A DNA stretch of 36,611 nucleotides, from positions 1 through 36,611 of IMG/VR virus record IMGVR_UViG_3300032242_000832, one strand, 5' to 3'. The notes under the pieces are model-generated. The model did not search any database and was not told the origin of the DNA. It saw nothing but the letters and a program-made list of their open reading frames with translations. Position 1 is the stretch's first letter. Each line of letters starts with the position of its first letter. Source of the stretch: a virus. This document shows positions 5,872 through 36,590 of this stretch, piece after piece. Both the position numbers and the translations under genes were made by a program.

Positions 5872-7905
5872 TTATCCTTTAAGGTATTCTAAAGGCGACT
5901 TAGCCTTTGGGGGAATTTTGTCAACAGGTGCTGATCGCTTATGCTTTCTAATTGCTTCACGCATTTCATCTAACCGCTTAGCACCTGCATCGGATGAGCC
6001 GTTTCCTAAAGCTGCTACTGTGTCGGCATCGAACACATACTCGCCATCTGCCAGCATTGCAGGAATGTCATCCGACTGGCCATCGCCTCTGCCTTTAACA
6101 TAATGACCAGTCTGACCTGTCACAAATTCAGGTGTATGACCATATTCTTGTTGATGAATCGTACCACCTAAAGCATATGAGCCTAGTGTAGGAAGCACAG
6201 AAGGAGCACCAGTCGGCTGAATCATCTTTAACCCATTTTGTATAAGGTTTGCCGCATGCTGTTCATCTTGTGCATCCATGAATCTACGGAAATATGCATC
6301 AGATGAATTAGCATTCTGTGTTTTTAATGCATTTTGCAGTGGACTGGCAACACTACCACCGGACTTATACATAGGCCGTTGACCACTAATTGCATTAAGA
6401 CCATAAGCCATTAAATTACTTGTTGGGTATTCTTGATTTCCAGGCGATGTGTCTGCAGTAGGCGAAAGATATGTCGGAATCTGTTGCTGTTGTGCAGTCA
6501 GAGGGCTTGTGATAGGCATAGACGAATCCTGTTCTGGAAGAGTATCTATTAATGAATTAAGTAGTTTAGGGTCAGTATCACCAAATTCAGGGTATAGCTG
6601 AACAAGCTTTCCTAGAATATCATTCTTGTTTTTAGGGATTGCAGTGTTCAACCATGTAGGTGTAAGAAATCCAGGCAATGGTGCTGCCGTTGTTGATGTT
6701 GATGTTGATGTTGTATCAGTAGGTGCAAGATTCGACAATTCTTGAGGATTAAATGTAGTTGGTGCACTTGATACGGTTGACAAAGGTGCATGCTGTGTAA
6801 TTTTTCCTGATGCACCTTGTGTTGGCAAATAAGCAGGGTCAACAGGCATCACAGGCTGACCTGTAATGTTTGGATTGTTGATAAACGAGGCTGGATTGCC
6901 AAGTACAGGTGCAGCTCCTTGAGGTGTTACACCTAATGCACCTACTACTGCAGGCGTATTATCAGGTCCTGTCACTGTAGGTGCTGTCAAACCTTGCCCA
7001 CCACCCATAGACTTAATAGCAGGTGATGTAGGAATTTGAAGTGCAGGTGCACCTGTTAATGGACCAGTAAGAGTGTAATCAACAGGTGTAAACCCAACAT
7101 TGTTTGCACCTGTAGTTGACAAAGGCGCTTGCATACCTGCACCAGTCTCAGGATTAACCTCATTAGCTGCTAAATTGGATGCCGATAATGGTGGTATGAA
7201 TGAGTAGTTTGGATTAACTGATGTGTCAATCGGTTGTGATGAAAGTGGTGCCTCATTTGTAGGCATAAGCGATTCTGATTGACCAAAATCAGCAGGCAAA
7301 GGCGCAGGAAATGGATTGCTTGAAGGTGATAAGAAATAGTCTTTGGCAATATTGAAACCTGAACCTGCCAATGAAGTAGAAAGAGCATTTCCTATTTGAT
7401 CACTTGTTCCACCACTTAAAGCAGTTGTCACCATATTAGTGCCTGCTTTTGTAAGTGCATTAGATACAGTTGGGTTCTGTAGCATGTCATTGATTTGACT
7501 TGCAGCAAGAGAAGAACCAGTGCTTATAACAGCGCTTGAAGCAGAATTTGCAATTGCTTTATCAAGTGGCACGCCTAGTGCAACCTGAATACCAGTGGAT
7601 GCAATTGCTGTACCAGCAACAGACGGAATGCCTAATTGATCTGATATGTAACTACCTGCCGATGGAGCAGAAGAAGCCAATGCAGCTTTTGCCATGTCTT
7701 CAACAGAACCGCCATTCATACCTGTCACAATTGCAGATGAAATAGGTGCAGGCACACCTGCCACTGTCAATGCAATAGTTTCTATTGTAGGCAGTGGATT
7801 TTTAATTATGTTTTCAGCAGTTTTGACAACAGTATTGACAACTTTGCCGCCAAAGTCTACAACACCTTGAACTAAGTTACCCGCTGCTTTTGCTACACCA
7901 CCCAT
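5872..7905 (-). CDS. Large ejection-like virion protein with conserved C-terminal domain
   Basis: This 677-aa protein opens with Gly/Ala/Val-rich amphipathic helices (1-200) that could associate with membranes. A long Pro/Ser/Thr/Asn-rich region (200-500) follows, then a Tyr-Lys-Ser-Gly-Gly element near 515. The last 90 residues form a compact, charged domain containing GDGQSDDIPAMLADGEYVFD and ALGNGSSDAG, which I recall as a recurring phage domain of unknown role. It overlaps the upstream gene by one base (TAATG). Position and composition suggest an injected internal protein. The C-terminal domain may be its packaging or docking part. Confidence 0.65.
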   Translation of the reverse strand: MGGVAKAAGNLVQGVVDFGGKVVNTVVKTAENIIKNPLPTIETIALTVAGVPAPISSAIVTGMNGGSVEDMAKAALASSAPSAGSYISDQLGIPSVAGTAIASTGIQVALGVPLDKAIANSASSAVISTGSSLAASQINDMLQNPTVSNALTKAGTNMVTTALSGGTSDQIGNALSTSLAGSGFNIAKDYFLSPSSNPFPAPLPADFGQSESLMPTNEAPLSSQPIDTSVNPNYSFIPPLSASNLAANEVNPETGAGMQAPLSTTGANNVGFTPVDYTLTGPLTGAPALQIPTSPAIKSMGGGQGLTAPTVTGPDNTPAVVGALGVTPQGAAPVLGNPASFINNPNITGQPVMPVDPAYLPTQGASGKITQHAPLSTVSSAPTTFNPQELSNLAPTDTTSTSTSTTAAPLPGFLTPTWLNTAIPKNKNDILGKLVQLYPEFGDTDPKLLNSLIDTLPEQDSSMPITSPLTAQQQQIPTYLSPTADTSPGNQEYPTSNLMAYGLNAISGQRPMYKSGGSVASPLQNALKTQNANSSDAYFRRFMDAQDEQHAANLIQNGLKMIQPTGAPSVLPTLGSYALGGTIHQQEYGHTPEFVTGQTGHYVKGRGDGQSDDIPAMLADGEYVFDADTVAALGNGSSDAGAKRLDEMREAIRKHKRSAPVDKIPPKAKSPLEYLKG

Positions 7906-12161: not shown

Positions 12162-12590
12162 TTAAGCGTACTGTCTAGTACCTTGTTTGTCGATAATCAA
12201 GGCCATCTGACGAGGTTCTGCATCCTCCTGATTAGGTATAGACACATGAGTCCACCTATCAAACTCACGAATGCATTGGTCGTATGGCAGACCTGAGCTA
12301 ATGATAGCACTTACCACCTCATCAGGGGTCATTCCCTTAACACGAATATCAGCAGCACAACCATGACGATGCTGGCTAGAGTCTTTAGAGCCAACGGCTG
12401 TATTCACTTCATGGCTACGGAAAGCTGAGTTAATGTGAATTTCACGACCGCCTAAGATGTCTCTGACTTGCTCTAAGAATGCAGCCAAACGAACCAAGTT
12501 GGCCATTTCAGCTTCATTAGGTGTATTGTCAAACTCACGGTGATCGGTGTGAGTCAGTTCTTCATATGTGAAATTTTCAGACAAGTTCAT
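12162..12590 (-). CDS. Endolysin, peptidase M15 family
   Basis: This 142-aa protein is probably a zinc-dependent murein peptidase (D-Ala-D-Ala carboxypeptidase / L-Ala-D-Glu type, M15A) that cuts peptidoglycan cross-bridges at lysis. The signature SxHxxGxAxD is intact: S72, H74, G77, A79, D81 in SQHRHGCAAD. The third ligand lies in WTHVSI (H115), and INSAFRSHEVN upstream matches the substrate-binding strand. There is no signal peptide, so it needs a holin. The start overlaps the Rz stop (ATGA), with AAAGGA 6 nt upstream. The length is normal for a single-domain M15 endolysin. Confidence 0.88.
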   Translation of the reverse strand: MNLSENFTYEELTHTDHREFDNTPNEAEMANLVRLAAFLEQVRDILGGREIHINSAFRSHEVNTAVGSKDSSQHRHGCAADIRVKGMTPDEVVSAIISSGLPYDQCIREFDRWTHVSIPNQEDAEPRQMALIIDKQGTRQYA

Positions 12591-13069
12591 TTTGTTCCTT
12601 TCAATGTTTGGTAGACTGTGTTGTAGGCGTCGATGCAGGCATTAAGTTGCCTTGTGTTTTCATCTCCTTTGTCGGTGATGGCGACAAGAGATCGAGCAAA
12701 CGTTGGGTCAAGTTCGGCTCCTGCTTGAACGCTATCTCCGGTGGAAGTGGTGGCATCTCCGGTGGTTTGTACGGGGCAGTCGGGGGCTTTGATAGGAACC
12801 CGCAGCTTGATAGCGCCAGAGTCAATATCAGAATTGCGCTTATTGATTTGCTGCTTTGCATCGTAGGCTGCCTTTGCATATTTAGCTGATAACTCCTGCA
12901 CATGATTGCTCAGTGCTTGTTCAGTTTCTCTCGCTTTTGCATTCAAAGCGGCAATTTCTATCTGTTGCTTTTCAATTTCATCAGCACCACCCTTATAGTA
13001 TCCACCACCAAAGGCACTGATGATGGCCAATACTATACCAAGAAGTACATAAGGATTAAATAGGCTCAT
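12587..13069 (-). CDS. Rz-like i-spanin
   Basis: This 160-aa protein has a single N-terminal membrane helix (about 8-25: VLLGIVLAIISAFGGGYY) with a short cytoplasmic tail. A long Glu/Lys/Gln-rich periplasmic coiled coil follows (30-85). The class II topology, the coupling to the holin (ATGA at its start) and the endolysin (ATGA at its end), and an embedded lipoprotein gene in another frame all identify the inner-membrane spanin. With Rz1 it would fuse inner and outer membranes in the last step of lysis, which implies a Gram-negative host. Confidence 0.85.
   Translation of the reverse strand: MSLFNPYVLLGIVLAIISAFGGGYYKGGADEIEKQQIEIAALNAKARETEQALSNHVQELSAKYAKAAYDAKQQINKRNSDIDSGAIKLRVPIKAPDCPVQTTGDATTSTGDSVQAGAELDPTFARSLVAITDKGDENTRQLNACIDAYNTVYQTLKGTK
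12601..12861 (-). CDS. Rz1-like o-spanin lipoprotein, nested in Rz
   Basis: This 86-aa protein lies entirely inside the Rz gene, in a different frame. The start at 12861 (MQSSKSISA) is chosen because AAAGG lies about 9 nt upstream and the signal peptide then has normal length. A hydrophobic stretch (AILILTLALSSC) ends in a lipobox, LSSC, so the mature protein would be an acylated outer-membrane lipoprotein. The mature part is Pro-rich (SKPPTAPYKPPEMPPLPPE), as in Rz1 proteins. An upstream in-frame start at 12903 or 12879 is possible but would make an unusually long signal. Confidence 0.85.
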   Translation of the reverse strand: MQSSKSISAILILTLALSSCGFLSKPPTAPYKPPEMPPLPPEIAFKQEPNLTQRLLDLLSPSPTKEMKTQGNLMPASTPTTQSTKH

Positions 13070-24149: not shown

Positions 24150-24692
24150 TTACCATCCTGCAATCTTTTTGATCTTACCGCCGTCTTTGCAATGCCAGCT
24201 TTTTAAGGACGCTTTTGCTCTTTCAGCAGGTCCTTTAGCATGCTTTACAACCCCTTCCATTCTTGCACAAAATGAATCATGTCTAGAGCCTTTTGCTTGT
24301 GGCGGCTTTAAGTGACTACCAGTTTCTCGATTTACTTTTGCCCGACCTTTTGCGGTCAATCCTGCACCTTGGTCTGTAGGCTTCTTTTCACCACGTTTAA
24401 TCGATAGTTTAACATCACCACCGCTTTTCATCTTCTTAGACTGTGAATGCTTAAGGTCATAGTCTGTAGGTGCGCCTTTGCTTCCAGGCTTTCTCATATG
24501 CTCGCCAGAACCATGCTTGATTCTTTCTTGCTTAGCATGAATGTTATCCCACAAACCGCCACTTTTCATACCAGTTGATCGCTTGGTAGCATAAGCAATG
24601 GCAACTGCTTGCTTAACAGGCTTACCTGCTTTAACTTCAGTTGCCACATTCTTACTAAATGCAGCTTTTGATTTACCTTTGACTAGTGGCAT
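24150..24692 (-). CDS. DUF6321-type basic protein with Lys-Ser-Gly-Gly motifs
   Basis: The C-terminal part (about 115-175) of this 180-aa, very basic protein matches my memory of DUF6321: GLTAKGRAKVNRETGSHLKP, then DSFCARMEGV and SLKSWHCKDGG. The N-terminal part carries MKSGGLWDN and MKSGGDVKLS, linking it to the other Lys-Gly-Gly-rich proteins of this phage. There is no membrane segment. It lies between the 887-aa structural protein and the adaptor, which suggests a virion or DNA-packaging-related basic protein. Its biochemical role is unknown. Confidence 0.75.
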   Translation of the reverse strand: MPLVKGKSKAAFSKNVATEVKAGKPVKQAVAIAYATKRSTGMKSGGLWDNIHAKQERIKHGSGEHMRKPGSKGAPTDYDLKHSQSKKMKSGGDVKLSIKRGEKKPTDQGAGLTAKGRAKVNRETGSHLKPPQAKGSRHDSFCARMEGVVKHAKGPAERAKASLKSWHCKDGGKIKKIAGW

Positions 24693-24701
24693 ATAAACCT
24701 C

Positions 24702-27365
24702 TTATGCTTGTGCTTCTTTCCAAGACAAACGAGCCTGAATTGTTGCAGAAGTGGCAGACAAAGGAATCGCCACCACATACAAAATATCAGGGCCATCAGG
24801 GTACAAACCAGCTTGTGCGGTTGGAATAACGTTTGAGGTTCCACCACCCAAGATTGAATTACCCAAGTCACGAACTTGAGACAAGTCAATTGATGTTGGG
24901 CCAGCCACCGCAGTGTAGACACCAGCCACAGACTCGCCGCCAGAGATGGTCACAGTATTGGTAACGTTGAAGTTCACCTGCGCTAATGAAGAGCTTGTAG
25001 GTGACTGCGCGGATGTTGGTGACTGAAAGTTTCCTGAGTTATTACTGAATGTGCCAGTAATGTACCCGTTCAAAATTAAGTTAACCAAATACCCAGTTGT
25101 GCCAGTGGTGAACAATTGAAGTTCGCTTAACTGAAGTTGCATGCGGTTGATGATTTCTTTCAATCCCAACGTACCAGTTGTTCCATTATCAACAGATGGG
25201 GCAATCCGAATAGCCAAGATTGGCACGGGAGATGTGGATGTAGTGGTCATTGCCACCGCCATACCGTAGTTAAACACCAGTGACTTGTCATCGTCAAAAC
25301 GACCGTCCATGATTACTGAAGAACCCCAGTGGGACAAAGATGCGGCAGTATCAGGCGAGGCAAACTCAACAGCAACAGGAGGAATTGCGTTTGTTGATGG
25401 GCTTGCGGCAGTAAATGACTGAGCTGTACCATTACCACCAGCTTGAATACGAGTCAAACCGGTCAGTGTGGTTGATGTTTTGCCAGAGTAGGCAATGTAT
25501 TCAATCGTGCCAGAACTGCCTGCATTTGACACCTTAACGGTTCCAGATGGGGCAAACCCTGCGGTGCTTGCAACGTTGATGGTTCCAGTTTCTAAACTTG
25601 ACAAAGTAGAAGTCAAATAAGTTGCTGGTGTCTGACCATTGGATTCATAGTGAGCAGCCATATTGCCTGATCGCATATATGCTTCAAACCGTTGATTGTT
25701 GTTAGTTTGTGTAAACACATAGATGATTGCACCACCCACAGTTCTAAAACCCCAACGAATCACACCAGCGCCATACCAAGAGTAGTCTATATACCACATC
25801 TGCATCTTGGTTAAGTCAAGCGTATAGCCAGATGGTCCTGTACCATCGCATGGGTCAAACCATGTTGATTGAGCATAACGTGTGTCAATGGTTTTAGAGA
25901 CTATATAACCGGCATTGGGGTTATTGGTAGTATTCAGTGTTGCACCACGATACTCAGGGCTAATAAACAACGAAGTGTCACTTGCAATGCTTGCAACCTT
26001 GTAGGACTGACCACGAATCACAATGTAGTCACCGGGAGCCAACTGAGTCGTAAACTGAGTACCAGTACCTGTCACGGTTCCTGAACCTTGAGTCACAGCC
26101 ACTGTTCCGTTAATCTGATTGGTACTTGTGCGCCATACAGCATACAAAGTCTGACCATCAAACTCAAAGAACATGCCATTCTGTTGGTCAAAGAAGCCAA
26201 CACGGTTGCTTGAGCCATACCAGCTTACTGGACTGATCTTGATAATCATGCCAGTAGCAGTAGCGGCTGAAGGAGTTGACAAGGCAACATAGGTAAAAGT
26301 CAATGTACCAGTCACCGTAATGGTAAATGTACCGTTGTAAGCCGATTGATCAGCGCCAACAACAGTAACTACGCAACCTGTTGCCAAGTTGTGTGGGAAG
26401 CGGGTGGTGACGGTGACCGTTGTGCCGCTTGATGTCAGGCTGGTGTTAAAAATTGAAGGTTTTAGTGTCGTACCAGTAGAAAACTGGATACCCTTACCTG
26501 ATTGGTAACGGAAATAACGACGGGTTTGGCGAATCAATTGTTGGTTTGGAACCGCCGCACCTGCAGAGAACGCTACACCACCATCGAATGCGCGAGGCTC
26601 AACGTAGCCAGAAGGACGTGCATACAAGTTGGTTTGACCTGCACTATTGGTTACAGTGCCAGTTGCGCCCGTAGAGGCGTAGGTAAAAGTGCTGGCTGTT
26701 GGAACAGTGGCAACAACCCATGCCCCATTGACGTTTGTACCGCCAGTTGTACCAACAACATAAATCAAACTACCTTTGGACAAACCATGAGGGCCAACGG
26801 TCGTAACAGTCACTGTGTTGGTGCTGGTCACAAAAGCAGTTGTACCTGAAGCCAAGTTAATACCTGCGCCAGAATAAAAGTAACCCAAATAAATATATGT
26901 GCTGGAAGGATTAAATTGGTTACCAGAGGCAACAACGTTTGTTGTGACATATGAAACGCTTACGTTTGAAGATACAGCAGACACCAACCACCAACCATTG
27001 GCATTAACATCCGCAGAATTTTGAATATAAATTGGAGTGCCGATTGAAAAACCAGTGGTGTCTGCCATGAAGACCGTAACGGTCGTTGTGCCTGCGCCTT
27101 GAATGCCCTTGTTGGATGCGCTAAGGTCAGGAACACGAGGGGATTGGGCAATGTAATAAACGCTTGGGCGACCTTGCTGAAGAGCAATTGTTTCCCATTT
27201 GGTTGGCTGAGTACCGTATTCAAAGTCGGTATCAATCAACGCTTGTGGCGATGAAGTACGCAATTTATCAACAGGGTCATAAGCAGCTGACCGCTGATTT
27301 GTCTGCGTCATCAACTGAAGATCGTTTTGGGTCTTGGGCCCGTTGTAGTTGACTAAGAATGACAT
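24702..27365 (-). CDS. Large adhesin-like virion protein with repeated beta cassettes
   Basis: The core of this 887-aa protein (about 375-580) has SWYGSSNRVGFFDQQNGMFF, GPSGYTLDLTKMQMWYIDYS and WYGAGVIRWGF, a block I recall in large structural proteins of cyanophages and other aquatic phages. Beta cassettes of about 50-70 residues, with the pattern G.....G...V......NG...V..V....F.Y, flank it at about 88-145, 170-236, 308-375, 418-470 and 583-640. There is no enzyme motif. It is the first gene after the UUCG terminator, with AGGTG before its ATG. It is probably a surface or tail-associated protein. Confidence 0.68.
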   Translation of the reverse strand: MSFLVNYNGPKTQNDLQLMTQTNQRSAAYDPVDKLRTSSPQALIDTDFEYGTQPTKWETIALQQGRPSVYYIAQSPRVPDLSASNKGIQGAGTTTVTVFMADTTGFSIGTPIYIQNSADVNANGWWLVSAVSSNVSVSYVTTNVVASGNQFNPSSTYIYLGYFYSGAGINLASGTTAFVTSTNTVTVTTVGPHGLSKGSLIYVVGTTGGTNVNGAWVVATVPTASTFTYASTGATGTVTNSAGQTNLYARPSGYVEPRAFDGGVAFSAGAAVPNQQLIRQTRRYFRYQSGKGIQFSTGTTLKPSIFNTSLTSSGTTVTVTTRFPHNLATGCVVTVVGADQSAYNGTFTITVTGTLTFTYVALSTPSAATATGMIIKISPVSWYGSSNRVGFFDQQNGMFFEFDGQTLYAVWRTSTNQINGTVAVTQGSGTVTGTGTQFTTQLAPGDYIVIRGQSYKVASIASDTSLFISPEYRGATLNTTNNPNAGYIVSKTIDTRYAQSTWFDPCDGTGPSGYTLDLTKMQMWYIDYSWYGAGVIRWGFRTVGGAIIYVFTQTNNNQRFEAYMRSGNMAAHYESNGQTPATYLTSTLSSLETGTINVASTAGFAPSGTVKVSNAGSSGTIEYIAYSGKTSTTLTGLTRIQAGGNGTAQSFTAASPSTNAIPPVAVEFASPDTAASLSHWGSSVIMDGRFDDDKSLVFNYGMAVAMTTTSTSPVPILAIRIAPSVDNGTTGTLGLKEIINRMQLQLSELQLFTTGTTGYLVNLILNGYITGTFSNNSGNFQSPTSAQSPTSSSLAQVNFNVTNTVTISGGESVAGVYTAVAGPTSIDLSQVRDLGNSILGGGTSNVIPTAQAGLYPDGPDILYVVAIPLSATSATIQARLSWKEAQA

Positions 27366-27383
27366 ATTAATTCACCTGTGAGT

Positions 27384-27407
27384 TAAAAAGACGGGGCCGA
27401 AGCCCCG
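27384..27407 (-). terminator. Intrinsic terminator with UUCG tetraloop
   Basis: On the minus strand the stem is CGGGGC / GCCCCG closed by a TTCG loop, followed at once by TCTTTTTAACT. The six GC-rich pairs, the exceptionally stable C(UUCG)G loop and the U-run fit a Rho-independent terminator. It lies just after the stop of the Lys-Gly-Gly-rich gene and 18 nt before the 887-aa gene, dividing the head module from the downstream structural genes. Confidence 0.85.
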
Positions 27408-27412
27408 AGCTT

Positions 27413-28315
27413 TTAATAATTGCAAGAACCGCCCTTTTTCTTGTGCGTAGAGATCTTTGAACTACCACCACCTTTCATACGATGGCCTTCAATCTTCGCA
27501 TGCCCATATGCATGTTTAGATGCATGTTTGTGCATGTGAGTATGCCCATGATCTCCATGGCCCATAGTTGTGTGATGAGTTACATGACCGCCATCTTTAT
27601 AGCCTGCTGGTTTTTGTTTGATCTCACCAGTTGAGCCTTTAACTGTTGGCATTTTTTCACCATCATGAACCATGGTGTCCTTGTACTTTTTAGCTACGCT
27701 ATCAGACACGGTACCGCCATTCTTGTAGCCTTTACCGCCTACACCACCGGTTTTTGTGCTAAAGCTTTTCGTTTGTTTAGCCTCATGGACTTTATCATTC
27801 ACATCAATTGCAGGATGTAATGTGCCACCTGAAGCCATGCCACCTTTTTTGTAGCCAGGACCCATGATAGCACCTGTACCTTTTTTAGACACTGGTTTTG
27901 TGGCTTCAATTCCGCCAAGCAAACCACCTACTACATCAGGTCCTGCATCTTTAACACCGCCACCATTTGCATAGTGATGAGTTTTACCGCCACGTTTTAA
28001 AGATAGCTTTGTACCTTTATCTTCTTTGTGCTCTTGTTTATCATGTTGCTTAAAAGCTTTCTTAATCAACGCCTTGTCTTGAGATACATCACCACCCTTC
28101 TTACGAAGAAGAGCAGGCGGCATAGCAGCAGCTTCAACACCAGGTCGTGCCATTGTGCGAACACGTGGTCGAACTGTAGGTGCTGACATCATAGGGTTTC
28201 CACCCATTGCCATTTTCTTTTTAGAACCGGCACTACCACCTTTTTTCATTTTCACTTCATCTACTGAAGGTTCGGTGGTTGCCATCTTTGGCATGCGACC
28301 AAAATTAGTTGCCAT
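27413..28315 (-). CDS. Lys-Gly-Gly repeat protein, basic
   Basis: This 300-aa protein is very rich in Lys, Gly and His. About eight copies of a [KR]xGG element appear, often in a Y/M-K-x-GG form: MKKGGSAG, LRKKGGDV, LKRGGKTH, YKKGGMAS, YKNGGTVS, YKDGGHVT, MKGGGSSK and KKKGGSCN. A His-rich stretch (MGHGDHGHTHMHKHASKHAY) precedes the end. There is no hydrophobic core or signal. AAAGGAGA precedes its ATG. It sits between the 442-aa structural gene and the terminator. Charge and repeats would suit DNA or negatively charged surface binding in the capsid. No function is known to me. Confidence 0.7.
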   Translation of the reverse strand: MATNFGRMPKMATTEPSVDEVKMKKGGSAGSKKKMAMGGNPMMSAPTVRPRVRTMARPGVEAAAMPPALLRKKGGDVSQDKALIKKAFKQHDKQEHKEDKGTKLSLKRGGKTHHYANGGGVKDAGPDVVGGLLGGIEATKPVSKKGTGAIMGPGYKKGGMASGGTLHPAIDVNDKVHEAKQTKSFSTKTGGVGGKGYKNGGTVSDSVAKKYKDTMVHDGEKMPTVKGSTGEIKQKPAGYKDGGHVTHHTTMGHGDHGHTHMHKHASKHAYGHAKIEGHRMKGGGSSKISTHKKKGGSCNY

Positions 28316-28326
28316 GGTGTTCTCCT

Positions 28327-29655
28327 TTAAGCTTGGTCAGAACCAAGTAAACCTGCACGAGTTGAGTTAGGACCGACTTGAATTGCCGTTAAACCCATGC
28401 TGATCAACAGGCGCTTCAGACCATCTGGTGTTGCAGAGATAGCGTAAGTACCACGAACGTCAGGGGTTGTTGGTGTCGAAACACTTGACGGAACCAAGTT
28501 CATACCAGAAGTAATGGTTGTGCCGCTTGTATTGACAAAAGTACCAGACAAGTAGTTAGCTTGAGTGGTTGACAACTTGCCAGTTGTTGCATTGATGTTT
28601 GTCCACCAGTAAGTGGTGTTCAAGGACACGCCAGTCAATGTACCCAATGCACCAGTTAACGTCACCAAAGTGCCGCTAGGAGGTGAATAGGCAACGGTTA
28701 CCACGCCGGGGCTTGCGGCAGTAAAGTTGGTGATTGCTTGAGTTGCGTAGTTTGTTGTACCGCCACCCAAACCAACAACAACACCAGAGGTGTTATCAAA
28801 GCTGTTGCTACCAGTAACTTTGGCAGTGATGATGTAGCTTGTGTCAGTGATCTTTGCTGGCAAACCCATAACTTTAGTGTTGTCAACAGAAATTGCACCG
28901 CCGGAAGCAACCATAGACACTGAAGACACTTGGAAGAATGCTTTACGACCATTCACTGCTGTAGAAGCAGAGGTGCTGGTGATGATGTACTCGCTCATGA
29001 ACTGACCGTAGTAGTCATAGCCAGAAACCAACACAGGGACAGCGGTCAAAGTGTTTGCAAAGGTCAAGCCAGTGTTAGTACCAGAAGTTACTGTAGTGAT
29101 TGCCGCGCCAGCAGTAGTCACCAATGTGAAGGTGGTTGTACCATTGGTTGCAGAGATCAAGTAAGTGCCAGCCGCAAAGCCTGTATTAGTACCAGAGTTT
29201 GTACCGGTCACAGTCATTGTTTGACCAACAGCCAAACCAACCAATGGGGTCGTTGCAACTGCAAACGAACCAGTTGTATTGGATGCCGTAATGTTGGCAG
29301 TTACAAAGGTTGCGGCAGTGAATGCACCAGTTGATACGCTGACAGCTCGAGGATAGTCCATTTGATCAACAAGTGTACCATCAGTACGAGTCACACGTGT
29401 CACACCTGCAGTAGTACTAGCAGCGGCAAGTGATGTGCCACTATAAGTAGTTGCTGAAGTTGCAGACGCAGGACTTGAAGCTGCCAAAATTGCGGCAGTA
29501 GTTACAGCTGCTGGAGTCTCATCCAACAGATAAACACGACCCATAGGACCAAAACCGAGATCCATAGGGGCAGGATTGCCTAAGTTACTGTTAGTGTTGA
29601 CACCGACAAATGATTGTGCAGTGCCTAAGAAAAGGTCATCTGAAAATTGAGGCAT
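28327..29655 (-). CDS. Ser/Thr-rich head/surface protein next to capsid gene
   Basis: The protein is 442 aa from ATG 29655, preceded by AGGGAGAAAG. The frame is open further up to 29760, but that extension would overlap the capsid gene and crosses the post-capsid stem-loop, so it is rejected. The N-terminus (MPQFSDDLFLGTAQSF, then GFGPMGRVYLLDETPAA) and the C-terminus (RGTYAISATPDGLKRLLISM) look conserved, with two Ser/Thr/Gly-rich beta cassettes between them (about 115-205, 310-400). There is no catalytic motif. Position right after the capsid gene suggests a head decoration or fibre protein. Confidence 0.65.
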   Translation of the reverse strand: MPQFSDDLFLGTAQSFVGVNTNSNLGNPAPMDLGFGPMGRVYLLDETPAAVTTAAILAASSPASATSATTYSGTSLAAASTTAGVTRVTRTDGTLVDQMDYPRAVSVSTGAFTAATFVTANITASNTTGSFAVATTPLVGLAVGQTMTVTGTNSGTNTGFAAGTYLISATNGTTTFTLVTTAGAAITTVTSGTNTGLTFANTLTAVPVLVSGYDYYGQFMSEYIITSTSASTAVNGRKAFFQVSSVSMVASGGAISVDNTKVMGLPAKITDTSYIITAKVTGSNSFDNTSGVVVGLGGGTTNYATQAITNFTAASPGVVTVAYSPPSGTLVTLTGALGTLTGVSLNTTYWWTNINATTGKLSTTQANYLSGTFVNTSGTTITSGMNLVPSSVSTPTTPDVRGTYAISATPDGLKRLLISMGLTAIQVGPNSTRAGLLGSDQA

Positions 29656-29693
29656 CGTCTTTCTCCCTGAAAAGTTTGACGAAGTTAAGAATC

Positions 29694-29724
29694 GGGGAGA
29701 AGCTTGTGGCTTCTCCCCTTTTTT
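29694..29724. terminator. Strong stem-loop after the capsid gene
   Basis: A perfect 10-bp stem (ggggagaagc / gcttctcccc) with a 5-nt loop is followed on the plus strand by six T. Read on the minus strand, in the direction of capsid transcription, the stem is preceded by six A and followed by GATTCTTAAC, only moderately U-rich. It could partly terminate or stabilise the capsid mRNA in the minus direction, and it would be a stronger terminator against antisense plus-strand transcription. Confidence 0.65.
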
Positions 29725-29732
29725 AGCGTTGG

Positions 29733-30647
29733 TTAGACGCCGGGGGTACCATACAAGCAACGAGGATCAGTCCAGTTAGGAATGTAACGCTCGGTGGCTT
29801 TGTAACGCATGGAGTCGGTTTCGAAATCGCCTTCCATGGTCTTTTCCAACGCACGACGCATCAGGAGCTTCAAGCCCTCTGGAGCATCGGTCTGAACCCA
29901 CCAGTTAGTGGCAGAAGTCAGACGGCTGATTACTGAAGCGCCTTCAGGCAACAAACCGATTGATTTAATCGGGTTAATGTCATTGTTAGCGGTACCAGTA
30001 CGCAACACTGATTTCAACAACACTTCGGCTTGGAAAACGTTTCCGGGAGCAACCACCAATTTGACTGGTTGCAAGCGAATTTTCTTACCGTTGTTGTCCA
30101 CAGCTTGACGAATTTGAATCAACATCTGTTCCAAAGAAGTCTGGCTTAAATTAGCAGCAGTAGTTAACTGATTGCTAAAAGATCCAGCTGCAATTGGGTG
30201 TGCAGTGTTAATTAAAGACACGCCGTCGCCACCTGTATATGCGCTATTGAAAGCACGGTTCATAATGTTAGCACACAGCAACTCTTTGGTTTCCACCAAA
30301 GATTGAGCCAGATGCTTAGCATACACTTGACCAATACGAATATGGTCACCGTCTTCAACCAGCACTTTGGTCAATGCAAAAGCAAGACCAAACACTTGGT
30401 AGACATAGCGCTGCAAGAAGAGCACACCACCTTGTTGATAGGTAACGGGAGAACCGTCAGGTAACTGAGGTGCTGCACCGAAACCGTACAAGACGGGTTC
30501 TTCATGGTAGTTACGTGGAATGCCTTGTTGTTCACGGAAAATCGTGGACCACTCATCGGCACGTTGATCATAGACTCCGTCAAACGCTTCATTAAGAATA
30601 GGTTCAACGATTGACCGGAAGTCCGTACTTCGCATTGGGGCTGCCAT
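29733..30647 (-). CDS. Major capsid protein, HK97-fold type
   Basis: This 304-aa protein is placed directly after scaffold-like and decoration-like genes. Its sequence fits a HK97-like capsid subunit: an N-terminal arm (MRSTDFRSIVEPILNEAFDG), a helix with AKHLAQSLVETKELLCANIM, a TGGDGVSLINTAHP segment typical of gpT-like capsid proteins, a LKLVVAP-type strand (VKLVVAPGNVFQAEVLL) and a C-terminal domain ending RYIPNWTDPRCLYG. It has the best ribosome site of the window, as expected for the most abundant protein. A stem-loop follows its stop. No protease gene is visible nearby. Confidence 0.85.
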   Translation of the reverse strand: MAAPMRSTDFRSIVEPILNEAFDGVYDQRADEWSTIFREQQGIPRNYHEEPVLYGFGAAPQLPDGSPVTYQQGGVLFLQRYVYQVFGLAFALTKVLVEDGDHIRIGQVYAKHLAQSLVETKELLCANIMNRAFNSAYTGGDGVSLINTAHPIAAGSFSNQLTTAANLSQTSLEQMLIQIRQAVDNNGKKIRLQPVKLVVAPGNVFQAEVLLKSVLRTGTANNDINPIKSIGLLPEGASVISRLTSATNWWVQTDAPEGLKLLMRRALEKTMEGDFETDSMRYKATERYIPNWTDPRCLYGTPGV

Positions 30648-30654
30648 AGTTCAG

Positions 30655-30662
30655 ACCTCCTT
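30655..30662 (-). promoter_or_regulatory. Consensus Shine-Dalgarno site of the capsid gene
   Basis: The minus strand reads AAGGAGGT, then 7 nt, then ATG. This is a full match to the anti-SD sequence. It overlaps the stop codon of the upstream decoration-like gene (TAAGGAGGT), which would couple the two products and give strong capsid translation. Confidence 0.85.
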
Positions 30663-31275
30663 AAACAATAGCTGTGTAAGAACCGAAGTACTGAGATTGT
30701 GAGTTAACAACTCGCAATACAACGTATGAGTCACCCCATGCGTTATCAGTAAACGGAGCGATATCGACAACGCGCATCTGGCCTTGTCCACCATTTGACT
30801 TAGCGGTTGAAACGCCTAAGCAAGTGGTAGATAAACCAGTTGTGGATGAACCAGAAGTAACGGTAAATCCAGTGGTTGCAGAGAAATCGTACTCACCACC
30901 AAGAGAGGTTTGTGCGATGGTTGCATCACTTTGAATTTCATACACGATATTTAAATCATTGTAGAAATAAGCAATGCAAGAACCGGCGATAAAAGTGGTA
31001 CTTGCTGGCCAGTAGTTACTGACACGGCGACGACCAGTTGTATCAGTCCATTCCACACCTTGGAATGAACCGGTCCATACACCGGTTGAACCGGCATTGG
31101 TGATAGTACCGGCGGCCACAGAAGTACCGGCAGTACTGTTGTAGCGCACAGGTGCACCTTTATAAATGTCAGTGCCGTAGCCTGACACAATACCGTTGGC
31201 TAGCGCTTGAGCACGTTCCAACCCAGTGGGGAAGAAAGCTGGGCGCAAACCAAACGGAGCGGATGTACTAGACAT
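30661..31275 (-). CDS. Probable capsid decoration / stabilising protein
   Basis: This 204-aa beta-rich protein begins MSSTSAPFGLRPAFFPTG, an N-terminus I recall from proteins encoded just before the capsid gene of aquatic podovirus-like phages. It continues with a Gly/Thr-rich body (APVRYNSTAGTSVAAGTITN, TGVWTGSFQGVEWTDTTGRR) and no membrane or enzymatic motif. AAGGAG lies 6 nt before its ATG. Position between scaffold and capsid and the likely small beta fold suggest a head decoration protein that stabilises the expanded shell. Confidence 0.68.
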   Translation of the reverse strand: MSSTSAPFGLRPAFFPTGLERAQALANGIVSGYGTDIYKGAPVRYNSTAGTSVAAGTITNAGSTGVWTGSFQGVEWTDTTGRRRVSNYWPASTTFIAGSCIAYFYNDLNIVYEIQSDATIAQTSLGGEYDFSATTGFTVTSGSSTTGLSTTCLGVSTAKSNGGQGQMRVVDIAPFTDNAWGDSYVVLRVVNSQSQYFGSYTAIV

Positions 31276-31297
31276 GTTTAACTCCTTGTTGTGAGGG

Positions 31298-31831
31298 TTA
31301 CCTAAAAAGGGGTGCCTCAGCTGTTTGGTCGAATCTCATGCCTTCGCCTTCAATTTGCACTAACGGTTTACCCTGGCTGTCGCGTGAATTAAGCAATTGG
31401 TCTTGTTGAACTTTAATCTTCTCTTGTTCATCCAAAGGCGCATAATGGTGCATTTCTGCCATTAGGTCTTGGTAAACATCCATTGGAATCTTAAAGAGCA
31501 ACATCTCATTACATGCGATGAAGCCTTCGTGCTCGCCGGACTTAACACGCAAGTGGTCAAAGCCTGCAATTTCATCGGCTTTTACTGCGCTATAACCCAA
31601 ACGAAGACGTTTGTGGATAGGATCGTATTGGTTAGTTGAAGATAACCAGCATAAGTGGAAACCCGGAATCTCGGGTGGGGTCGGAAGTGCTTCTTGAAGC
31701 CACTCCGAGCGGAATGCTCTACGGCGTTCCTCGGATGATACAAATTGTTTCTCAGGCTCTTGTCGTGACACATCCATCTGTGCACGACTTTCACGGCCTT
31801 GTTTTGTGTTTCGTTTGATGCGTTCGTCCAT
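31298..31831 (-). CDS. Conserved-looking head-module protein of unknown role
   Basis: This 177-aa soluble mixed protein has a charged N-terminus (about 1-45), a block ALPTPPEIPGFHLCWLSSTN followed by YDPIHKRLRLGYSAV, and a helical part with NEMLLFKIPMDVYQDLMAEM. I recall this order in proteins between scaffold and capsid genes of marine phages, without known function. It starts 4 nt after the scaffold-like gene's stop. It may act in head assembly. Confidence 0.65.
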   Translation of the reverse strand: MDERIKRNTKQGRESRAQMDVSRQEPEKQFVSSEERRRAFRSEWLQEALPTPPEIPGFHLCWLSSTNQYDPIHKRLRLGYSAVKADEIAGFDHLRVKSGEHEGFIACNEMLLFKIPMDVYQDLMAEMHHYAPLDEQEKIKVQQDQLLNSRDSQGKPLVQIEGEGMRFDQTAEAPLFR

Positions 31832-31835
31832 GATA

Positions 31836-32819
31836 TTAGCCTTTCAGTTTGTTAGATCTATCCCACTCCGCATATTTGCGGATTGCATTTTGACGAAGTT
31901 GAGGGTTATCCCACAAACCAGCTTCCTTTAGCGCATTCACGCGATCAGGACTAAGTCTAAACTCATTAGACTTTGTGGTTGCCATGGTTTCCCTACCTGA
32001 ACTTGTCATTACAGATCTAGGCCTTTGGTTACGAACGTTAGACTCATTATATACACGGTTCTGTGATTGTGGTACATATTTTTTGAGTCTATCAGATAAC
32101 TCATCCCAATAATCCTGCGATGATGGGTCAAACCCTTCCTCTGTCAGTTTCTTGTCAACGATCTGAGCAATCTGTGATTCTTCATTCCTGCCATGAGGGT
32201 CATACCAAGGGTTCTCTTCCATCCAGTCAGCGGCAAGCCTCTGTACTGTTGGGTCAGGCACATTGATGTTCTGCTTAGGCTGAGAAATCTGTTTTGTTGC
32301 TTGCTGCTTCATGCCTTGCAAAGACTCGAGCTTTCTACGAGCCTCATACAACATTTCTTCCGCTTGTGTCACACCGTTGCCATCTTGACCGGCAACAGCC
32401 TCTTTCATCTTCATCTTGGCATACTCGACTTGCACACTGGCATCATCGATTGCCTTATCGACCCTTGCTAGCTCGGCACCAGAGGTCTTTTGCTCAACTC
32501 TAGCCAATCTATCGGCAAGATCAGCATTCTGCTTCTTCAGAGCATTAATCAGATGGTTCGATTCACGAATCTTACCTCTGTGAAGTTGCTTTTTTAACTT
32601 CCGCTCTTCTCTGCGAGCAGCTCTAATGGCTTCACGCTCAGGATCATCAGTCGTTGCCCCCTCGCCATGATCGTCATCCTCTTCGAAGTCAGAACCACCC
32701 TCTGCAAGGTCTTTTGGTTCATTGTGTTGAGGACTGACCTCATTTTCGGGCAGCTGAACAATGGCAGACCCATCTTGTTCCTCAGCTACCTGCAAATCTA
32801 GTTTATCTGTTGCGTTCAT
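31836..32819 (-). CDS. Scaffolding-like protein
   Basis: This 327-aa protein has a strongly acidic N-terminus (SDFEEDDDHGEGATTDDPER). A long Lys/Glu/Arg coiled coil follows (about 65-190, with RKLKKQLHRGKIRESNHLIN). The C-terminal region has an ENPWYDPHGRNEESQIAQIV block and a basic terminal helix (about 300-327). This acid-coil-basic design, plus its place upstream of the capsid gene, is typical of scaffolding proteins that guide capsid assembly through a basic C-terminal helix. GAAAGGA precedes its ATG. Sequence similarity to named scaffolds was not tested. Confidence 0.72.
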   Translation of the reverse strand: MNATDKLDLQVAEEQDGSAIVQLPENEVSPQHNEPKDLAEGGSDFEEDDDHGEGATTDDPEREAIRAARREERKLKKQLHRGKIRESNHLINALKKQNADLADRLARVEQKTSGAELARVDKAIDDASVQVEYAKMKMKEAVAGQDGNGVTQAEEMLYEARRKLESLQGMKQQATKQISQPKQNINVPDPTVQRLAADWMEENPWYDPHGRNEESQIAQIVDKKLTEEGFDPSSQDYWDELSDRLKKYVPQSQNRVYNESNVRNQRPRSVMTSSGRETMATTKSNEFRLSPDRVNALKEAGLWDNPQLRQNAIRKYAEWDRSNKLKG

Positions 32820-32837
32820 TCAGTTTCCTTTCAAAAC

Positions 32838-33257
32838 TTATATAAATGCTTTAATGTCTCGAGGATCTCCGGTCACTCGTCCAATGATTTCATGGTCATT
32901 GAAGAACGTGAACAAGGCTTTTCCTTTCAGACCGTCTTGCTCGAAGTCGATTTCCCATCTGTCGCCACCCCACTTAGGCACGCGAACATACTCGCCAACG
33001 CCGCACCACACCCCCTCAGGCCAGGGCTCCATAGTGTCACGCTTTCTGAAAGCGAGAGGACCAACTGCGATCACTTTACCGATCATGGTGTTCCATTTCT
33101 CGGTTTCTTTGGTTTCTTCCGACAAAATAATACCGGAACTTGTGACTTTCTCTTTCACTGCTCTTAACTGAACAAGAACACGAGCACCATACGGTGCCAT
33201 GAGTGGGTCAATTACAGGAAACGCTTCTTCAAGCGTTTGTTCGACATCAAGTGTCAT
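32838..33257 (-). CDS. GroES-like (cpn10) co-chaperonin
   Basis: This 139-aa protein has the cpn10 pattern: PYGARVLVQLRAV (21-33), a T-SSGIIL element (EKVTSSGIILSEET, the mobile loop region), IGKVIAVGPLAF (58-69), then GVGEYVRVPKWGG and a closing beta strand. GroES-type proteins cap GroEL folding chambers. Phage versions such as T4 gp31 adapt host GroEL for capsid folding. Here the gene sits between the portal and scaffold genes, which fits a capsid-folding role. It is longer than typical GroES (about 97 aa), with extra residues at both ends. It overlaps the previous gene by 11 nt. Confidence 0.82.
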   Translation of the reverse strand: MTLDVEQTLEEAFPVIDPLMAPYGARVLVQLRAVKEKVTSSGIILSEETKETEKWNTMIGKVIAVGPLAFRKRDTMEPWPEGVWCGVGEYVRVPKWGGDRWEIDFEQDGLKGKALFTFFNDHEIIGRVTGDPRDIKAFI

Positions 33258-33432
33258 GTTTTCTTTCCTCTTCTAGAAGTTGGTTGATAAAGTCTAAGGC
33301 TTCTTGCAAGCCTATGGATTGTCCGACCAATCGTTGATAGCTTTCGAAATTTGTGCAATTCCCATCTACCAACCCCATAGCAATTTCTTGTCTACGAGTC
33401 TTGATCAAACCAATGAGAGCATTAACTTGCAT
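33247..33432 (-). CDS. Small helical phage protein
   Basis: This 61-aa protein has two helices (ALIGLIKTRRQEIAMGLVDG and QSIGLQEALDFINQLLEEER) joined by a short turn. I recall similar small helical proteins near portal and head genes of podoviruses. It overlaps its neighbours by 11 nt at both ends. GGAGAA is 8 nt upstream of the ATG. No specific function can be assigned; a partner role in head assembly is possible. Confidence 0.65.
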   Translation of the reverse strand: MQVNALIGLIKTRRQEIAMGLVDGNCTNFESYQRLVGQSIGLQEALDFINQLLEEERKHDT

Positions 33433-33733
33433 GCTTCATTCTCCACTCTTCTAATATCTGCAGCAGCTCCTTCCTAAAGATCTGCTGAGATATAAGCTCA
33501 CTTGGTTGGTATGTGCTAATAAATTTTTGCAGCATACTATGAGGTATATCCAATCCTCTGACAGGATGTGGAAGTACATCAGTTGTGAGCGGTTCTTTTT
33601 CCGGCTGTATGCCGTAAATTTCTTCGGTTAAAGGAGCATCCGCGCCTTTTTTTACTTTGGCGACTTTCTTTGCAATCTCATCTTTCGTAAGATTTTTGAC
33701 ATCGTCGCCAATATATGCTGCATGATCCAACAT
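33422..33733 (-). CDS. Small acidic-basic mixed protein, head module
   Basis: This 103-aa protein starts MLDHAAYIGDDVKNLTKDE and continues with KKVAKVKKGADAPLTEEIYG and a helical C-terminal part (SELISQQIFRKELLQILEEW). The stop of the gene upstream lies directly before its ATG (TAAATG), and a GAGG site is upstream. I do not recognise the family. The tight coupling to its neighbours supports a real gene in the head operon. Confidence 0.62.
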   Translation of the reverse strand: MLDHAAYIGDDVKNLTKDEIAKKVAKVKKGADAPLTEEIYGIQPEKEPLTTDVLPHPVRGLDIPHSMLQKFISTYQPSELISQQIFRKELLQILEEWRMKHAS

Positions 33734-34072
33734 TTATCGGCCTCGACCAGATGCTTTTCTCATCGGTACAGCAATTGCTACTGTCAAACCTACACCCTTC
33801 TTAGCATGACCACCTTTTTTCATAGTGGCGATTTTGCCTGTAGGCGCAGCAAGTGGTCGTTTCTGTCCGCTATCATTGATCAATGTACGAACTTTAGACT
33901 CTGGGTAAGCACCAATGCCATTGACATTAGCTTGATGGCTAATTTCAGGCTCATGACTTACCTTGCCACCTTTGGCAAACTTCTTAACACCGCCGCCTTT
34001 TTTAAGGTGCGTTTCCGCCCCCGCTTGGCCCATTGCGATCCGTTTGTGCATATTGATTGGGTCTTCCGACAT
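33734..34072 (-). CDS. Lys-Gly-Gly motif basic protein downstream of portal
   Basis: This 112-aa basic protein has three [KR]xGG elements: LKKGGGVKKF, FAKGGKVSHE and MKKGGHAKKG. The last 20 residues are Arg/Lys/Gly-rich. A perfect AGGAGGT site at 34080-34086 lies 7 nt before ATG 34072, inside the portal coding region. The two genes overlap by 71 nt in different frames. Its motifs are shared with the 300-aa and 180-aa proteins downstream. It may bind DNA or the portal. The role is unknown. Confidence 0.72.
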   Translation of the reverse strand: MSEDPINMHKRIAMGQAGAETHLKKGGGVKKFAKGGKVSHEPEISHQANVNGIGAYPESKVRTLINDSGQKRPLAAPTGKIATMKKGGHAKKGVGLTVAIAVPMRKASGRGR

Positions 34073-36590
34073 TTGAGTTACCTCCTAAATTTTGTTGCAG
34101 TTTGTGGTGAGCTTCAAGAACAGTTGACAGTTGCTCATGCTGTAACTGTGCGGCATCCCTTGTAAGCTCAGCCGCTTTAATACGCTCATCAGTTAAGTTG
34201 TTCTCTGAGTTCTTAACTGCATCAATTTGCATTTGTTGTGCTTTGATCTGCACATCAGCTTGGTCCTTAGCAGCTTTCCGCTGAGTTTCGGCCATTGACG
34301 TTTGTGTAAGTGCTTGCACTTGTGCTGTAATATTTGGATCAACAGGGATCGGTGGTACTTGACTTTGTGCTTGTGCTTGCAATTGCTTCATCAATTGGAA
34401 CATCTGGTTCATGGCTTGGCCTACTTCGCCCAACTGTTCTTTACTATCCAGATGAACGTGCTGTGTAGCAGCTGCCAACAGCTTCTGAGCTTCTTTCATA
34501 AGTGGTTGTACTTTAAGTATGTTGTAAGACTTACCAAGTGCTGCGGATGTATAGCCGTCAGCCATTGCCAAATACCACATTGTCAAGTGCTGCTTCATAT
34601 GCTCTAAGCATGCAGGTATAAATGTAGGCGACACAATCGGATTCATACCAAAAATCGGATCCATAGCATACTGCAAATGCACCATAAAGTGTGCCATATG
34701 GTCTTGCCCTGGGAAAGCACCTGTCGGCTGACCCATTGTCATTGCCACATTCTCAAGTGCTGGGTTCATGTCCTCAACCTCTTGTGGGTCAGGCAACACC
34801 TCATTCACGTCAGGCAGCTTAATCTGCTTTAGTATTCTGCGCTCAACTGCAAGCCTGTTGTACAAGTCAGGGTTTGCCTGAGCTCTTGCTGCAAGAGTTT
34901 GAATCTGAGCATAGCGTTGGGACTCGGCGAAGATGTGCGGATCACTGACAGGTATCACATCAGAATTCGTAATGAAGTCATCCGCGACAATCTCAAGGTC
35001 TTCTACAACCTCGTTCTTACGTTGCTCATCCAAGTACCAACGGTTCAGCCTTGTAAGTACACGGAAAACACGCCGTTGTGAATCATGCAACCTTGCATGA
35101 ATTGAACTAAAAACTGCTGCACCCTGCTCGATCAATGCTTGTGTTGTGCCAACAGGTGCATTTGATGTGATGTCGGCAATCTTTTCTTCGCTGGTTGTAA
35201 CAACACCTTTTGCTGCATCGGTTAACCACCCAAGCAACTGAAACAGAATCGGGCTTGGTTGGTTAAACGGCACAGGCATTGCAATTTTACGGATGTCATC
35301 AACACCGGGAGCTCCTTCGATCTCGGCAACCTGCGTCGGTTCGATCTGAGTGCTTTGACCACTAATCTTAGCTCCTTTAAGCTTAAGCATAGTCGGTGCA
35401 TTGTTGATATGAGCACTATCCAGCAAAGCTCTAAGAGCGCCAGTAAGAGCGGCAGACAAACCACCGATAAGATGAGGCAAGCCAATTGCATAAGCACCCC
35501 TCCAAGGAATAAACTTGAACTCAATAATGTGGTCCAGTTTGGTGAATGTTTCGTCACCATCTTCCCAGTTGCGGTACAAACCGACGACCTCACGCTCATT
35601 TTCATCGATCATCAAAATATACGGGGCACGATCGCCTTTTGTGAAGCTATCATCTGATTGCTCCAACCAGCACATGATGTGATACACACGTCGAACACCG
35701 TCTACATTGTCATGCTCACGCTTCTTGCCCTCGATCTTGTCATTTGCTTTCTCAGACTTAGTCTGTGTCGGCTCCATCGGGGCTCTAAAAATTCCTGTGT
35801 CAGTATACAAACCTGTAGCAACACGAAGCTCATACTCTTCTTGCGTAATATCCTGCACTTCTGTGATACGGCTTGCTGTGTAGAAGTTGCCTGCTGCAAA
35901 CGGCAAATAAATATTGTCAATAGGTATAAACTCAGTGCGTGGCCGCTTTTGCTGTTCGTCCCACCACATCTTCAAATACTGACTACCGCCAAGTGGCAAT
36001 TGTGTCAGCATCTGTTCTTGCTCATCTCTATACTCTTCAATCTGCTCAGTCAGCTGCCAGTTCATGTAATCGCGCTTACGGTTTGCACGATTCGTCTTCT
36101 CTTCAGTAACTTCACCCATAATCTTGGTCTTAACCGGACCATCAGGCGGAAACAACTCTTTAATCGCACGAGCTGCAAAGTCCACACAAGCCTCGGCCAT
36201 CACAGGATGCACAACCTTAGATGCACCCATAAACTGTGCACCTCCTGGTGCATCATTGCCTAATCCTGTGCGACGAAGACCGTCCTCGTACTGCTTGTCG
36301 CGATCCTCACGAGCTTGCTTATCTTTCCCGATCAGATCTAAATACTTAAGTGCTAAACTTCCTAGATCTAGTGAGTCAAACTTCTCAGCAAGATTTTCAT
36401 AGAAATCTGGGTTTTCTTCTGGGCCATTCAGATCTTTAGATCTAACAATGGCAGATCCGTCAGGCAGTTCTTCAACTTCGGATTCGTCTTCGTCGAAAAG
36501 CTCAAAAACCGACTCATCGGCTTCGGGCATGTCTTGCAATGGGTTGACAAAGCGGTTGTAATCCTGAGGAATCGGCATCTCTGTGGCCAT
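34002..36590 (-). CDS. Portal protein
   Basis: This 862-aa protein fits a large podovirus-type portal ring subunit. The N-terminal part (1-90) is acidic. DAPGGAQFMGASKVVHPVMA (about 112-131) and ACVDFAARAIKELFPPDGPV match a block I recall in portal proteins of this phage type. A clip/stem region follows with a GAPGVDDIRKIAMPVPFNQP segment. The long Gln/Ala/Lys-rich helical C-terminus (about 710-845) would form the barrel. The portal is the DNA-packaging channel and docks terminase. GCGGAGAG precedes the ATG. The terminase should lie beyond the right edge, which leaves only 21 bases upstream here. Confidence 0.85.
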   Translation of the reverse strand: MATEMPIPQDYNRFVNPLQDMPEADESVFELFDEDESEVEELPDGSAIVRSKDLNGPEENPDFYENLAEKFDSLDLGSLALKYLDLIGKDKQAREDRDKQYEDGLRRTGLGNDAPGGAQFMGASKVVHPVMAEACVDFAARAIKELFPPDGPVKTKIMGEVTEEKTNRANRKRDYMNWQLTEQIEEYRDEQEQMLTQLPLGGSQYLKMWWDEQQKRPRTEFIPIDNIYLPFAAGNFYTASRITEVQDITQEEYELRVATGLYTDTGIFRAPMEPTQTKSEKANDKIEGKKREHDNVDGVRRVYHIMCWLEQSDDSFTKGDRAPYILMIDENEREVVGLYRNWEDGDETFTKLDHIIEFKFIPWRGAYAIGLPHLIGGLSAALTGALRALLDSAHINNAPTMLKLKGAKISGQSTQIEPTQVAEIEGAPGVDDIRKIAMPVPFNQPSPILFQLLGWLTDAAKGVVTTSEEKIADITSNAPVGTTQALIEQGAAVFSSIHARLHDSQRRVFRVLTRLNRWYLDEQRKNEVVEDLEIVADDFITNSDVIPVSDPHIFAESQRYAQIQTLAARAQANPDLYNRLAVERRILKQIKLPDVNEVLPDPQEVEDMNPALENVAMTMGQPTGAFPGQDHMAHFMVHLQYAMDPIFGMNPIVSPTFIPACLEHMKQHLTMWYLAMADGYTSAALGKSYNILKVQPLMKEAQKLLAAATQHVHLDSKEQLGEVGQAMNQMFQLMKQLQAQAQSQVPPIPVDPNITAQVQALTQTSMAETQRKAAKDQADVQIKAQQMQIDAVKNSENNLTDERIKAAELTRDAAQLQHEQLSTVLEAHHKLQQNLGGNSNVGRPNQYAQTDRNGPSGGGNAP

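Follow-up and report, generated by a model that had tools for sequence, protein, structure and literature searches.

Unrelated proteins encoded in the late operon of the virus record IMGVR_UViG_3300032242_000832 share a short Gly-Gly element, and we tentatively read this element as a docking tag. The DNA analyzed (positions 1-36,611, the entire IMG/VR record of 36,611 bases; hereafter the window) is a phage fragment, as both of its ends fall within gene sets. Four of its proteins are at issue: a protein of 300 amino acids (aa; p300), a 112-aa protein encoded after the portal gene (p112), a 180-aa protein with a DUF6321 domain (p180) and a 677-aa protein that is probably an ejection or tape-measure-like protein (p677). 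The element would be a short linear docking tag on packaged or ejected cargo proteins of these podoviruses, a reading that we regard as falling a little short of probable. The cargo would comprise a polyvalent protein encoded before the portal gene together with p112, p300, p180 and p677, each carrying from one to about 16 copies in flexible linkers or near its ends. The tag would be recognized by one and the same virion part, with the portal/ejection core or the inner face of the capsid as the likeliest choices, so that unrelated proteins could be loaded by one address. The packaging of these proteins, any binding by the motif and the identity of the bound part are what we infer from sequence.

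Expected counts were obtained by shuffling each protein's own sequence, and p values are uncorrected for the number of proteins tested. A first-pass annotation of the window had noticed [KR]xGG about eight times in p300, three times in p112, twice in p180 and at least once in p677. Counting gives nine copies in p300 (1.54 expected, p = 0.001) and three in p112 (0.44 expected, p = 0.006; two of the three overlap as KKGGG), both above the shuffled expectation. The enrichment in p180 was also borne out, with three copies rather than two (0.60 expected, p = 0.019), and the single copy in p677 is present but not significantly enriched (0.27 expected, p = 0.24); moreover, the p677 gene (5872-7905) falls outside the interval 24150-34072, which had been given for all four proteins. 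With [YFMLH][KRA]xGG, the form learned from relatives, the counts are nine in p300 (0.43 expected, p = 0.0002), three in p112 (0.11, p = 0.0004), two in p180 (0.12, p = 0.005) and two in p677 (0.16, p = 0.011). The initial list of copies had missed the Ala forms, namely MAMGG, YANGG and MASGG in p300 and YALGG in p677. Among the other late-operon proteins tested, only a 327-aa protein contains this form (LAEGG, p = 0.03), and [KR]xGG occurs singly and without enrichment in GroES (PKWGG), a 585-aa protein and a 350-aa protein of the window. The GroES site (GroES at 32838-33257) was rejected as a copy of the tag; it is conserved within the GroES of relatives, with 52 matches in 56 sequences.

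More than 400 loci of relatives were fetched. Among unique homologues, [YFMLH][KRA]xGG was found 454 times in 53 sequences of p300 (25.7 expected), at least once in every one of them; 120 times in 41 sequences of p112 (3.8 expected), all of which have it; 41 times in 53 sequences of p180 (5.8 expected; 68% with the motif); and 81 times in 73 sequences of p677 (23.4 expected; 93% with the motif). Against the shuffles, the motif is in excess of what composition predicts, and the excess is conserved across dozens of relatives. A strong form, [YFMLH][KA]xGGx[VIAMLT], was then counted by gene slot in contigs sharing the capsid gene. It occurs 68 times in the gene before the portal (3.2 expected), 79 times in the interval between portal and GroES (0.7), 82 times in the p300 slot (1.4), three times in the DUF6321 slot (0.2) and five times in the scaffold (0.4), and its count is about zero in the portal, GroES, p177, p204, capsid, p477, p887 and p352 families of these contigs. 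Eleven longer related contigs hold 144 strong motifs (17.4 expected) in three to six open reading frames (ORFs) each. Three maps were inspected, and in them the motif-bearing ORFs fall in the late virion region. In N4 and P22 the strong form is at the level of chance, with no copy in N4 (0.9 expected) and one in P22 (0.87 expected). Two motif-bearing phages have complete genomes, the isolated pelagiphage HTVC027P and phage DSL-LC04. The matching slots of HTVC027P encode FKKGG (gp44), FKNGG at the end of gp46, YKVGG and YKKGG (gp47) and FRKGG (gp84), and those of DSL-LC04 encode YAKGG, MKSGG, FAMGG, MADGG and FAEGG. In gp43 of HTVC023P, FKRGGDV stands directly ahead of a DUF6321-like domain.

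The consensus from relatives is [Y/F/M/L/H]-[K/A]-x-G-G-x-[V/A], in which Lys is merely one option. Relative to the first Gly, three unrelated families have M or Y at position -3 (F, H or L in some), K or A at -2 and V at +3. The preference for V at +3 gives z-scores of 13.4, 11.6 and 14.0 in the three families, which overstate independence because the sequences within each family are related, so that it is the agreement between families that counts; these preferences are not seen in control families, and portal, capsid, chaperonin and tail-adaptor families are without the profile. Because the hydrophobic, Lys/Ala and Val positions are all enriched in these three families but not in the controls, the shared binding signal proposed by the first-pass annotation fits best and is supported in part: the common element and its profile stood, and Lys as its core did not. 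The common profile also speaks against an effect of charge alone or a linker that is no more than flexible.

Relatives encode a large, very variable protein upstream of the portal gene, and this protein too carries the tag. Several of these proteins contain ART-PolyVal, ParB-like, PcfJ-like and other domains, matching polyvalent proteins, which have been predicted to be packaged and injected with the DNA (Iyer et al. 2017, PMC5512222). The corresponding gene expected in the window phage lies beyond the end of the window. At the key position of the motif these proteins have Ala 85 times and Lys 44 times, and Lys was accordingly rejected as the defining or essential residue. This ratio also bears on the possibility that p300 and its like are internal basic proteins whose KxGG repeats bind or condense DNA in the manner of simple histone-like tails. 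p300-like proteins are indeed rich in Lys and Gly and often in His, and DarA/Hdf of phage P1 touch DNA within the head (PMC12810830). However, the excess of Ala makes a simple DNA-binding role weak, much of the signal is held by the hydrophobic and Val positions rather than by charge, and Lys is missing altogether from YALGGTI, a copy in p677, so that we consider DNA binding rather improbable.

Many of the proteins encoded upstream of the portal end with a tag of about 25 residues, for example GYAKGGTVQRPATLDDMKFALMMRRA. In the polyvalent proteins 14 of the 65 motifs lie 15-35 residues from the C-terminus (1.2 expected). The fuller tag, in which GG is followed by a segment like [SN][IL]DxM[RK]xxL, stands at the end of 26 of 1877 long ORFs, and shuffled sequences gave no such case. 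Nineteen of the 26 are distinct; they fall into 10 groups, between which the preceding 200 residues are unrelated. A defined sequence within a narrow distance range of the terminus would not be expected if the element were just the flexible linker style of these phages, spread together with modules and having no partner. Such a linker could do without hydrophobic, Lys/Ala and Val residues at set positions, but unrelated families have them again and again, and the Gly pairs are invariant while the adjoining linker residues and lengths vary. The plain linker has in its favor that AlphaFold places the p180 copies, with moderate to low confidence, in coil between or after helices, and that the motif is enriched at module borders only modestly. 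In an alignment-end test of long proteins it was within 10 residues of a border in 8.1% of cases against 4.6% (1.8-fold), near the enrichment of proline pairs (9.3% against 6%), and we therefore make no claim that the motif marks all module borders. We judge the plain linker unlikely, and both it and DNA binding explain less of the profile than docking does.

The modular p180 raises another question. PHROG matches divide this protein into residues 1-43, 44-83 and 80-168, and the last part passes the curated cut-off of PF19846 (E = 1.8e-13, 51.3 bits against 28.5; match to residues 107-166). The three modules are three genes in DSL-LC05, and two of them are nearby separate genes in S-SBP1, HTVC168P and P-GSP1; the separate-gene versions are without KxGG. 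In the alignment of p180 relatives the Gly pairs are kept and the surrounding linkers vary, and in the AlphaFold model (mean predicted local distance difference test score, pLDDT, 61) all three elements are in coil, two of them within the least confident stretches. Might the element then be a processing site, at which a host or phage peptidase cuts beside Gly-Gly to free fused modules and trim terminal tags? Several viral cysteine proteases cut at Gly-Gly, the p180 elements sit at joins of modules that are separate genes elsewhere, and elements come straight after ADP-ribosyltransferase domains: all nine ADP-ribosyltransferase-type domain ends found by pattern are followed directly by a [K/A]xGG-type element. 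The P22 ejection protein gp7 is trimmed of 20 N-terminal residues by a host peptidase (record note), and DarA of P1 is cleaved by the prohead protease (PMC12810830). Processing stays a rival because of the fused modules and the trimming of gp7, and we nevertheless think it quite unlikely, since the up to 16 copies in a p300-like protein would lead to its being shredded. Moreover, the hydrophobic residue is at P5 here and at P4 in the sites of adenain, PLpro and double-glycine leaders. A Pfam scan of 20 window proteins turned up a single peptidase, the M15 endolysin; no domain of a cysteine protease with Gly-Gly specificity was found among them, the record being a fragment.

Other features of p180 are as follows. 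Depositors have labeled DUF6321 homologues "structural protein" (S-E7) and "virion protein" (S-SCSM1), by annotation only, and a literature search on DUF6321 found nothing. Modules of the DUF6321 protein are widespread, being present in 631 phage records that include cyanophages, pelagiphages and Pbunavirus-type Pseudomonas phages, and a module is often a small gene of its own there. Cys 142 and Cys 168 of the DUF6321 module are invariant in close relatives. Some relatives (locus L382, 1886-2539; locus L358, 2501-3208) have additional short segments, inserted at a join or appended C-terminally, with more Gly-Gly elements on either side. The contig IMGVR_UViG_3300027747_000004, which at 110,994 bases is about twice the usual size for these phages, has two DUF6321 matches 56 kb apart and may be two phages joined.

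Residues 591-653 of p677 match the tape measure family phrog_6090 (E = 4.7e-7), which identifies a tape-measure C-terminal domain; of the two copies in p677, the second, YALGGTI, has Gly-pair positions that are invariant or nearly so in 24 sequences. The p300-like proteins consist of about 15% Lys and 16% Gly, with His-rich tracts in many. Of 91 such proteins, 87 have the N-terminal TTEPSVDE-like block and 80 have a Cys in the last eight residues, often directly after a KxGG element, against an overall Cys frequency of 0.5%; this terminal Cys and the His tracts might possibly serve in disulphide formation or metal binding. The FKQHDKQEH module of p300 is a stand-alone gene of about 68 aa in other contigs. 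Neither p300 nor p112 has a stand-alone profile match in Pfam or PHROGs or a tblastn match in cultured phages, and for p300 and p180 no solved structure was found. The start of p112 lies 71 nucleotides within the portal gene (overlap 34002-34072), which suggests coupled translation.

Several observations weigh against a docking tag. The homologues are mutually related, so that counts across them are not independent. The motif is largely missing from Caulobacter phage KcrB, Roseobacter phage CRP-902 and Planktothrix phage Pag-Yong1 despite their homologous capsid and portal, and it is therefore a lineage feature that is not required by the common head. In a table of gene presence, no clear candidate for a receptor is present in the motif-bearing and lacking from the motif-poor cultured relatives; p477 is confined to the closest relative, and the motif-poor Pag-Yong1 has p180 homologues too. 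The p180 joins retain K-x-GG without a conserved hydrophobic position. An AlphaFold model of the C-terminal 180 residues of p677 was too poor to use (mean pLDDT 49.6). Finally, we found no virion proteomics or binding data for the tagged proteins, and the main text of the HTVC027P transcriptome paper (PMC12753301) gives no per-gene data on tagged genes.

How phages choose the proteins that they carry and inject is mostly unexplained outside a few models (T4, N4, P1 and P22, for example). If the element is an address, the injected proteins of abundant uncultured phages could be listed from sequence. It would also provide a portable packaging signal and place a number of "hypothetical" late genes, among them those of the widespread DUF6321 family, in a single process. 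A wider reading, more doubtful than the first, is that [hydrophobic or His]-[K/A]-x-G-G-x-[V/A], often inside the C-terminal tag of about 25 residues, might be a general cargo address of the whole gpT-capsid podovirus clade, across freshwater and marine hosts including SAR11. In that case it would mark the proteins that are delivered to the host, and effectors could be recognized from their sequence alone.

Table 1. Genes, modules and Gly-Gly elements of the window (positions on the 36,611-base record).
Feature	Residues	Position	Strand	Remark
Portal protein		34002..36590	-	phrog_1216; without motif
p112, after portal gene	112 aa	33734..34072	-	61 relatives in viral contigs
p112 LKKGGGV	23-29	33986..34006	-	
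p112 FAKGGKV, Ala-type	32-38	33959..33979	-	both Gly invariant in 31 aligned sequences
p112 MKKGGHA	84-90	33803..33823	-	both Gly invariant wherever segment exists
Major capsid protein, Mu gpT type		29733..30647	-	PF10124; without motif
p300, Lys/Gly/His-rich	300 aa	27413..28315	-	between 477-aa gene (after capsid gene) and 887-aa gene; 9 [KR]xGG and 3 Ala-type
p300 TTEPSVDEV block, N-terminal	13-21	28253..28279	-	
p300 MKKGGSA	23-29	28229..28249	-	
p300 MAMGGNP, Ala-type	35-41	28193..28213	-	
p300 RKKGGDV	71-77	28085..28105	-	
p300 LKRGGKT	106-112	27980..28000	-	end of FKQHDKQEH module
p300 YANGGGV, Ala-type	115-121	27953..27973	-	
p300 YKKGGMA	155-161	27833..27853	-	
p300 MASGGTL, Ala-type	160-166	27818..27838	-	
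p300 TKTGGVG	187-193	27737..27757	-	weak form
p300 YKNGGTV	197-203	27707..27727	-	
p300 YKDGGHV	239-245	27581..27601	-	
p300 MKGGGSS	280-286	27458..27478	-	
p300 KKKGGSC, C-terminal	292-298	27422..27442	-	with near-terminal Cys
p180	180 aa	24150..24692	-	three modules linked by KxGG elements
p180 module A	1-43	24564..24692	-	phrog_2423; separate 50-aa gene in DSL-LC05
p180 join 1, MKSGGLW	42-48	24549..24569	-	Gly45-Gly46 invariant
p180 module B	44-83	24444..24563	-	phrog_16028; separate ~50-aa gene in DSL-LC05, S-SBP1, HTVC168P, P-GSP1
p180 join 2, MKSGGDV	88-94	24411..24431	-	Gly91-Gly92 invariant
p180 module C, DUF6321	107-168	24189..24374	-	PF19846
p180 CKDGGKI, after module C	168-174	24171..24191	-	
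p677, probable ejection/tape-measure-like protein	677 aa	5872..7905	-	
p677 YKSGGSV	513-519	6349..6369	-	
p677 YALGGTI	577-583	6157..6177	-	border of variable linker and conserved C-terminal domain

The late operon of the window lies on the minus strand and includes the portal, p112, GroES, a probable scaffold, the Mu gpT-type major capsid protein, the 477-aa protein, p300, the 887-aa structural protein, p180, fibre-like genes, an SU10-type adaptor and four large probable ejection proteins. It also encodes a protein with a structural-protein match that we read as P22-gp10-like. The portal has kin in Caulobacter phages RW/KcrB, pelagiphages HTVC023P and HTVC027P, Roseobacter phages CRP-901/902, DSL-LC04 and Planktothrix phage Pag-Yong1, and gene order is similar between these phages and the window phage; a sequence search found no solved structure related to the portal or the capsid. 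Genome bins contain capsid homologues of 80-91% identity, most of them on contigs labeled Betaproteobacteria; this suggests a host group, although the bins are possibly contaminated. Adjoining the M15 endolysin gene, a 100-aa lipoprotein-like ORF (12601-12903) is nested in another frame within a 160-aa ORF (12587-13069); the two are a probable Rz/Rz1 spanin pair.

Packaging tags are already known as a kind. As far as we could find in open papers, to which the search was limited, there is no description of a multi-copy, internal or C-terminal element common to polyvalent, ejection and small late proteins. The Pfam KGG stress repeat PF10685 contains Lys-Gly-Gly, and p300, p112 and p180 have no Pfam match to it at E ≤ 0.1. 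p677 ends in the phrog_6090 tape-measure C-terminal segment, with an element at the start of the domain; this domain is found only in p677, whereas the other tagged proteins share the element alone. Internal proteins of T4 have a capsid targeting sequence, a short, single N-terminal peptide removed by the prohead protease, and this too is a short peptide address that brings unrelated proteins into the head. In contrast to the T4 type, copies here are internal or C-terminal and frequently numerous, and a prohead protease is not among the proteins identified in the window. Polyvalent proteins, which are large and variable, combine several domains and have their genes next to late genes, carry the tag in relatives, but here the same element is also on small non-polyvalent proteins. 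Glycine, linker and packaging signal do not occur as terms in the main text of the paper on polyvalent proteins (PMC5512222), and its passages on motifs concern enzyme active sites and domain motifs, so that the tag is apparently not described there. DarA/Hdf of P1, which sit against the inside of the capsid and are missing once the heads have emptied, are bound via folded domains and loops, unlike a linear tag, and the word "motif" is nowhere in the main text that describes them; as defence-related proteins that reside inside the head and leave it with the DNA, they offer a precedent for the cargo proposed here (PMC12810830).

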